DNA from: an uncultured Bacteroidota bacterium
GTDB taxonomy: Bacteria > Bacteroidota > Bacteroidia > JABEUT01
Assembly (NCBI GenBank): GCA_903916255.1
Contig: CAIWVW010000114.1
Coordinates: 1 to 42,405, forward strand
Length of the DNA stretch: 42,405 bases
Direction of reading: 5' to 3'
A model generated the notes under the pieces. That model had not been told where the DNA came from. It ran no database searches and worked only from the letters and a program-made list of their open reading frames with translations. Made by a program: the position numbers and the translations under genes. Of the stretch, positions 35,840-35,937 are shown piece after piece; the first letter of the stretch is position 1, and the number at the start of each line of letters is the position of its first letter.

Positions 35840-35885
35840 TTCTATTTATTTTTCGGTTTATAATTTATGTTCTATTAAAGTACTT

Positions 35886-35903
35886 ATCAATTAGTGTGCC
35901 AAA
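35886..35903 (-). promoter_or_regulatory. Candidate sigma-54-type promoter of dnaK
   Basis: On the minus strand TTGGCACACTAATTGAT resembles the -24/-12 pattern TGGCACg-N4-TTGCw; it deviates at one base in the -24 part and in the last C of the -12 part. The predicted start would leave a leader of about 37 nt. Sequence-based only. Confidence 0.45.
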
Positions 35904-35937
35904 ATGGCAGGGGAGGGGGTACTGACAAAATGGCAGT
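35897..35937. promoter_or_regulatory. Twin palindromes upstream of dnaK, possible regulator sites
   Basis: TGCCAAAATGGCA (35897-35909) is a perfect palindrome with arms TGCCA and TGGCA. ACTGACAAAATGGCAGT (35921-35937) is a near-palindrome of the same type with one mismatched pair. The first overlaps the -24 element of the candidate promoter and the second lies about 20 bp further upstream, as for an activator or heat-shock regulator. Confidence 0.5.

Follow-up and report, generated by a model that had tools for sequence, protein, structure and literature searches.

A putative sigma-54 heat-shock promoter with a helix-phased upstream site at dnaK of an uncultured Bacteroidota bacterium

Promoters of the sigma-54 type require an activator of the enhancer-binding protein (EBP) class. 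One such activator, PspF, has no N-terminal sensor domain; it drives the phage-shock genes and is held by PspA. Heat-shock control of the genes considered here is known from CIRCE/HrcA and from sigma-32. For the Bacteroidota, we know of no named activator in the control of chaperone genes.

The closest described case is Flavobacterium psychrophilum, in which mapped transcription starts carry a sigma-54 motif (SM4) at dnaK, groES, grpE-dnaJ, htpG, lon and clpB (PMC9723704). The same account lists three PF00158 proteins and says of its co-expression clusters that these "might correspond to distinct activators" (PMC9723704). A 2025 survey predicts an enrichment of sigma-54 promoters at Bacteroidota chaperone genes; where it states that grpE and groES of Bacteroides thetaiotaomicron are under sigma-54, it cites its reference 80, a Blattabacterium genome paper (PMC12316311), and we place no weight on that statement. 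The word RpoN does not occur in the main text of the B. thetaiotaomicron atlas (PMC10994844). A full-text literature search, with most subscription journals outside its reach, returned no source naming the upstream site described below or its activator.

We analysed a stretch of 42,405 nucleotides (the window) from a genome of 3.74 Mb in 149 contigs, 97% complete. Identity of its DnaK to those of other Bacteroidota reaches 95% (best 80 of at least 345 confirmed relatives), and among the matches listed the closest dnaK is that of L018, an uncultured Bacteroidetes MAG, at 95% identity. The features of the locus are collected in Table 1. Read along the dnaK coding strand, they follow one another as the putative enhancer (UAS) CTGCCATTTTGTCAG, the palindrome TGCCATTTTGGCA, the -24/-12 element TTGGCACACTAATTGA, the leader and the ATG. 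A first-pass annotation had described a -24/-12 promoter and two palindromes here, and all three of its strings were found where it had placed them, upstream of the dnaK start: TTGGCACACTAATTGAT on the minus strand at 35886-35902; TGCCAAAATGGCA at 35897-35909, with perfect five-base arms (TGCCA/TGGCA) around AAA; and ACTGACAAAATGGCAGT at 35921-35937, whose arms contain one non-matching pair. Its observation as a whole was confirmed, and its interpretation was partly supported. Within the window, CTGNCANNNTGNCAG occurs once against 0.03 expected and TGGCAYNNNNNTTGA once against 0.22 expected; such single-window counts are far weaker evidence than the comparative data.

Table 1. Features of the dnaK upstream region in the window, and the candidate activator gene of the source genome.
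Feature	Position	Strand	Basis or remark
dnaK (Hsp70), 644 aa	33905..35839	-	ORF and translation; PF00012, E 6.5e-257
Predicted 5' UTR, 36-nt leader, start site near 35875	35840..35875	-	Inferred from the position of the -12 box
Sigma-54-type -24/-12 element TTGGCACACTAATTGA (-24 TGGCAC, -12 TTGA)	35887..35902	-	Conservation of the pattern; identical in L018
Palindrome TGCCATTTTGGCA overlapping the -24 box	35897..35909	.	Probably fortuitous; not conserved in L018
Putative enhancer (UAS) CTGCCATTTTGTCAG, given on the dnaK coding strand	35922..35936	.	21 bp upstream of the -24 TGGCA
C127 EBP, 406 aa	Contig C127, between a miaB-like gene and lptE		PF00158, 8.3e-69; HTH_8, 8.5e-13

To quantify the promoter at dnaK, we compared the 250 bp upstream of the gene in the window and in the best 80 of at least 345 confirmed DnaK relatives. 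The pattern TGGCA[CT]-N5-TTG was present in 80 of these 81 upstreams, against 0.10 in dinucleotide shuffles, 0-3 matches when the spacing of TGGCA and TTG was slid, and 1 of 272 control upstreams, the latter belonging to other mechanical ORFs of at least 120 aa at the same loci, some of which are surely spurious. The claim of a -24/-12 promoter is therefore supported, and the accompanying remark that such a promoter is unusual for dnaK is not supported, since it is the rule among the Bacteroidota examined. The copy in the window, TGGCAC-N5-TTGA, has GG and TTG at the spacing expected for sigma-54. At -12 it departs from the textbook TTGC in having TTGA; over the 80 dnaK promoters the fourth base is A in 71%, T in 25% and C in 4%. 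The genome was also found to contain rpoN, as the first-pass annotation had proposed to check (PF04552, E 1.1e-52, contig C132), and the gene is present in 294 of 296 genomes of the phylum, the two without it being fragmented assemblies of 310 and 450 contigs. Genome-wide, the promoter pattern is only mildly enriched, with 104 sites where the reversed control has 68. Of the 100 sites inspected, 12 were not covered by an ORF of 100 codons or more; this filter removed the lon site, which was regained by a second listing. Judging from this conservation of sequence, we regard the sigma-54 promoter at the window dnaK as real.

The same type of promoter was found at other chaperone genes. A looser pattern, TGGCA-N6-[TCG][TC]G, stood upstream of groES in 17 of 20 relatives, of htpG in 12 of 14 and of grpE in 13 of 17. 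Shuffles stayed below 0.5, and sliding the spacing gave 0-1; the loose -12 pattern had been picked after viewing the sequences and was then given these controls of its own. The strict -12 pattern occurs in only 4-5 of the 20 groES promoters. For groES, 29 GroES-type rows were obtained in 20 genomes and the best row per genome was used (20), leaving out 9 further rows; the searches for htpG, grpE and the EBP covered 17 of these 20 genomes. HtpG (HSP90, PF00183) is present in 14 of the 17 Bacteroidota searched, with no match in the source genome (G000) and its near relatives G001 and G002. Altogether, 126 of 133 chaperone upstreams carry the loose promoter and 7 of 133 do not. In the source genome itself, groES, hsp20 (assigned by PF00011) and lon (assigned by PF02190) carry the strict element, which precedes the start codon by 61-70 bp.

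Two further observations concern the promoter sequences themselves. Of the 80 dnaK promoters, 96% have TTGA or TTGT at -12, versus TTGC in 58% of 12 htpG promoters, and this base difference may tune the basal level. Upstream of grpE in the source genome (L150, contig C50), the sigma-54-like TTTGGCAAGGTTTTTGA is followed by TATATTTG, which matches TAnnTTTG, the -7 box of sigma-A promoters as published for F. psychrophilum. Judged by these two strings, grpE of the source genome may have overlapping promoters.

The upstream site was examined over the 126 upstreams with a loose promoter, leaving out the 7 without one. With at most one mismatch, TGnCA-N3-TGnCA lay within 110 bp above the -24 box in 104 of the 126 promoters, and thirteen other spacers gave 7-38 of 126. 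Exact copies were found in 35 of the 133 chaperone upstreams (shuffles 0.35), among them 24 of the 81 dnaK upstreams of the window and the best 80 of at least 345 relatives, against 3 of the 272 controls. Within 100 bp, sites with at most one mismatch were present at dnaK in 72 of 81 (shuffles 4.0), at groES in 13 of 17 (1.05), at htpG in 12 of 14 (0.6) and at grpE in 6 of 13 (0.4); none of 17 grpE upstreams has an exact one. When the scan was extended to 130 bp above the -24 box, 22 of the 126 promoters had no site with at most one mismatch. The consensus of the 104 best sites is approximately CTGnCA(A/T)(T/A)(T/C)TGTCA(C/G), a family that can be written CTGnCA-N3-TGTCA. In the source genome the site is exact at dnaK and hsp20, has one mismatch at groES and is reduced to a half-site at lon. 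The hsp20 copy, GACTGACA-AAA-TGTCAGTC, has perfect eight-base arms and lies 12 bp above the -24 box, counted from its inner 13-mer. In L018 the dnaK site is kept as CTGACATTTTGTCAC at an unchanged distance from the -24 box.

A stricter motif had been suggested in the first-pass annotation as the one to look for at other chaperone genes. As a regulon motif (TGCCAnnnTGGCA, TGCCANNNTGGCA) it was rejected for being too strict: it has 16 sites in the genome, and of the 15 outside the dnaK promoter 13 fall within mechanical ORFs (80 aa or longer). By eye, no chaperone gene was recognised next to any of the 15, including those outside ORFs (L007, L009). TGnCA-N3-TGnCA is the better motif.

Some variant sites were also seen. 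In the dnaK upstreams of L030, L035, L043, L046, L049 and L085, TGTCA-N7-TGACA lies 62-64 bp above the -24 box; exact TGnCA-N7-TGnCA occurs in 15 of the 126 promoters, and from its sequence the N7 arrangement may represent an alternative version of the UAS. A gene for a small GIY-YIG domain protein in the source genome (L298 1610-1861, contig C85) has the promoter TTTGGCACGGAAATTGA with TGCCAAAATGACA 30 bp upstream, and looks like a member of the same regulon, although it is off the 10.5-bp ladder described next.

The distances between the UAS and the -24 box, scanned up to 110 bp, are not spread evenly and cluster at 11-14, 21-25, 32-35, 43-44, 54-55, 63-67 and 73-76 bp. These clusters form a ladder of about 12, 22, 33, 43, 55, 65 and 75 bp, that is, of 10.5-bp steps, on which the near rungs at 12 and 22 bp and the far ones at 65 and 75 bp are common; the UAS of the window is on the second rung. 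Among periods of 6-16 bp the best was 10.5 bp, with R 0.754 (117 best hits, 113 thinned promoters), a figure inflated by the relatedness that remains after automatic thinning at an 8-mer Jaccard of 0.15 had removed 13 of the 126 promoters. The exact sites alone (n=28) gave R 0.661 at 10.5 bp and peaked at R 0.677 at 10.4 bp. For 18 hand-thinned lineages R was 0.723, with p 8e-5, to be taken as indicative, and 1 of 20,000 random sets was as good; this set omits the hits of L020 and L120 beyond 100 bp, the overlapping hit of the window, two hits without a -24 box, and the second hits of L072 and L148. Of the 126 promoters (scanned to 130 bp), 19 combine a near with a far site, and in 18 of the 19 there is a pair 51-55 bp apart, about five turns. 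Phasing of 10.5 bp is what would be expected of an activator bound on the same face of the DNA as the sigma-54 polymerase. The usual sites of EBPs lie much farther upstream than 11-25 bp.

The phasing also bears on whether the site could serve a repressor. In one rival reading, which we consider unlikely, the promoter is of the sigma-54 type, its palindrome is occupied by a repressor (a response regulator resembling RprY, for instance), and the EBP acts elsewhere. RprY of Porphyromonas gingivalis does behave like a repressor, and in EMSA it binds the groES, clpB and dnaK promoters (PMC3646045). However, a repressor has no obvious need of 10.5-bp phasing up to 76 bp upstream of the -24 box, and RprY does not bind htpG (PMC3646045), whereas a site with at most one mismatch is found at 12 of 14 htpG promoters. 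The word "motif" is absent from the main text of the RprY paper (PMC3646045).

We then searched for the protein that might bind the UAS. In the source genome, PF00158 gave 7 rows over the Pfam cut-off, two strong (1.4e-70 and 2.3e-69) and five weak (4e-9 or worse); PF00158 also matches in all 14 control genomes, so that weak rows mean little. A query with the full EBP protein matched only the two strong EBPs. One of them, encoded on contig C127 (Table 1), begins its Sigma54_activat domain (12-178) with no N-terminal sensor domain in front; a lid comes next, and a stretch of about 100 residues then leads to a Fis-type HTH (365-405). It was found at full length in 17 of 17 relatives, the source genome included, at 54-100% identity. 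In the 17 orthologues the GAFTGA loop reads GSFTGA or GAFTGA, and the HTH contains a near-invariant helix, ISERT(L/M)(Y/F)RK(I/L)K. In 7 of the 17 the gene shares its strand with groES, from which it is 2.1-3.2 kb upstream; its own upstream neighbour is not always miaB-like and differs in some relatives. Locus tags in F. psychrophilum likewise place a sigma-54 regulator and LptE (0733, 0732) close to groES (0729) (PMC9723704).

Elimination and this synteny are the grounds on which we assign the UAS to the C127 EBP. In Porphyromonas crevioricanis the one EBP match is of the C127 type. The promoter is accompanied there by an exact UAS at dnaK and htpG (TGCCAAGTTGTCA, TGTCAATTTGTCA) and by a UAS with one mismatch at groES, and at grpE even the loose promoter was not found. 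Another genome, G134, also has a single EBP match, with rpoN present. Provided that the sites are real, the sequences make it probable that the chaperone UAS belong to the C127 EBP. We find it improbable that they are bound by a different EBP, such as the contig C116 response regulator, in place of the one linked to miaB and lptE. Such an exchange is conceivable in that several relatives are rich in EBPs, with up to 10 matches in one genome. Against it stand the P. crevioricanis genome, which has kept UAS and promoter with the C127-type EBP as its sole match, the presence of the C127 EBP in all 17 relatives and near groES in 7, and the surroundings of the C116 EBP itself.

The C116 EBP is a response regulator whose gene adjoins kdpA (PF03814) and a gene for a P-type ATPase, taken to be kdpB (L296 62-5543, contig C116 of G000, and L275 742-765). 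Between it and kdpA lies the sigma-54-like TTGGCACACAACTTGC, with GAAAATCAT-N6-ATGATTTTC 27 bp above. The latter two form a 9-bp inverted repeat, a palindrome different from the chaperone UAS. This arrangement of sequences suggests sigma-54 control of potassium uptake.

The second palindrome of the dnaK promoter, TGCCATTTTGGCA, could be thought of as a functional partner of the UAS, for instance one through which twin sites allow auto-repression by occlusion of the -24 box. Its arms are perfect and it has half-sites in common with the UAS. Nevertheless, we find this quite improbable. In the alignment with L018, the closest relative listed, the upstream site is shared as CTG[C/A]CATTTTGTCA, and identity is complete from TTTTGGCAC on through the leader, so that UAS and -24/-12 element are kept; where the window has the palindrome, L018 has TTGGCATGTTTTGGCA, and the left half is not kept. 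The right half is simply the -24 box. Six further relatives in the alignment have no exact site aligned with the palindrome, some keeping the left half only, and among the 81 dnaK upstreams (the window and the best 80 of at least 345 relatives) the window has the sole exact spacer-3 match at that position. As the left half is not conserved in L018, we treated the overlapping palindrome as incidental, and on these alignments it is probably fortuitous. The earlier idea that the palindromes may be the site of a dedicated heat-shock regulator is supported for the upstream one, on the strength of the 104 of 126 promoters, and is not supported as a twin-site reading. A chance explanation, with sigma-A transcribing dnaK and the two elements there by coincidence, is extremely improbable: short-motif counts in one genome are weak, as the 104 sites against 68 illustrate, but chance is contradicted by the dnaK upstreams compared with their controls and by the mapped sigma-54 starts of F. 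psychrophilum (PMC9723704).

Taking into account the computed conservation of promoter and UAS, their helical phasing and the presence of rpoN and the EBP, we put at roughly three in four the probability that dnaK has a heat-shock promoter dependent on sigma-54, equipped with an enhancer that the C127 EBP binds, and belonging to a shared ancestral regulon. The C127 EBP as binder of the UAS and heat as the signal are what we infer. Under this proposal, sigma-54 RNA polymerase would sit on TTGGCACACTAATTGA as a closed complex, waiting, and the C127 EBP, an AAA+ protein, would bind the same face of the helix at CTGCCATTTTGTCAG, using ATP to open the complex. The same EBP would act at groES, hsp20 and other quality-control genes, which together would make up a sigma-54 heat-shock regulon ancestral in Bacteroidota. 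The conserved UAS points to one dedicated activator for heat-shock genes across much of the phylum. The more general statement, that a single dedicated sensorless sigma-54 activator runs the Bacteroidota heat-shock response from close-in, strictly helix-phased enhancers, seems to us about evenly balanced between true and false. By analogy with PspF and PspA, our guess would be that the sensorless EBP is switched by release from an inhibitor, perhaps a chaperone.

If the proposal is true, an activator at 12-22 bp would stand almost against the polymerase, and direct contact would take the place of conventional looping. This would be a different geometry for sigma-54 activation and would inform how activators reach the polymerase. 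For a major phylum of gut, oral and environmental bacteria, one DNA site and one candidate gene are now proposed for chaperone control.

Compared with the known systems, the target genes are those of CIRCE/HrcA and sigma-32, whereas the sigma factor and the DNA element are different. Classical CIRCE had already been noted as absent at dnaK, and this held for the exact inverted repeat, TTAGCACTC-N9-GAGTGCTAA being found in 0 of 299 loci, dnaK and groES upstreams included. Like PspF, the C127 EBP has an AAA+ domain followed by a Fis-type HTH, with no receiver or sensor domain in front; unlike PspF, it has core chaperones as putative targets and about 100 residues between the AAA+ lid and the HTH. 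RprY differs in being a repressor-like two-component regulator that binds groES, clpB and dnaK and not htpG (PMC3646045). F. psychrophilum with its SM4 promoters comes closest, having the phylum, the genes and the -24/-12 type in common with the present case; its account, as far as it treats these promoters, names no activator and gives no enhancer sequence (PMC9723704), whereas here there are a phased UAS and a candidate EBP. The promoter type at chaperone genes was thus already known, and the phased UAS together with a candidate dedicated activator is the new part.
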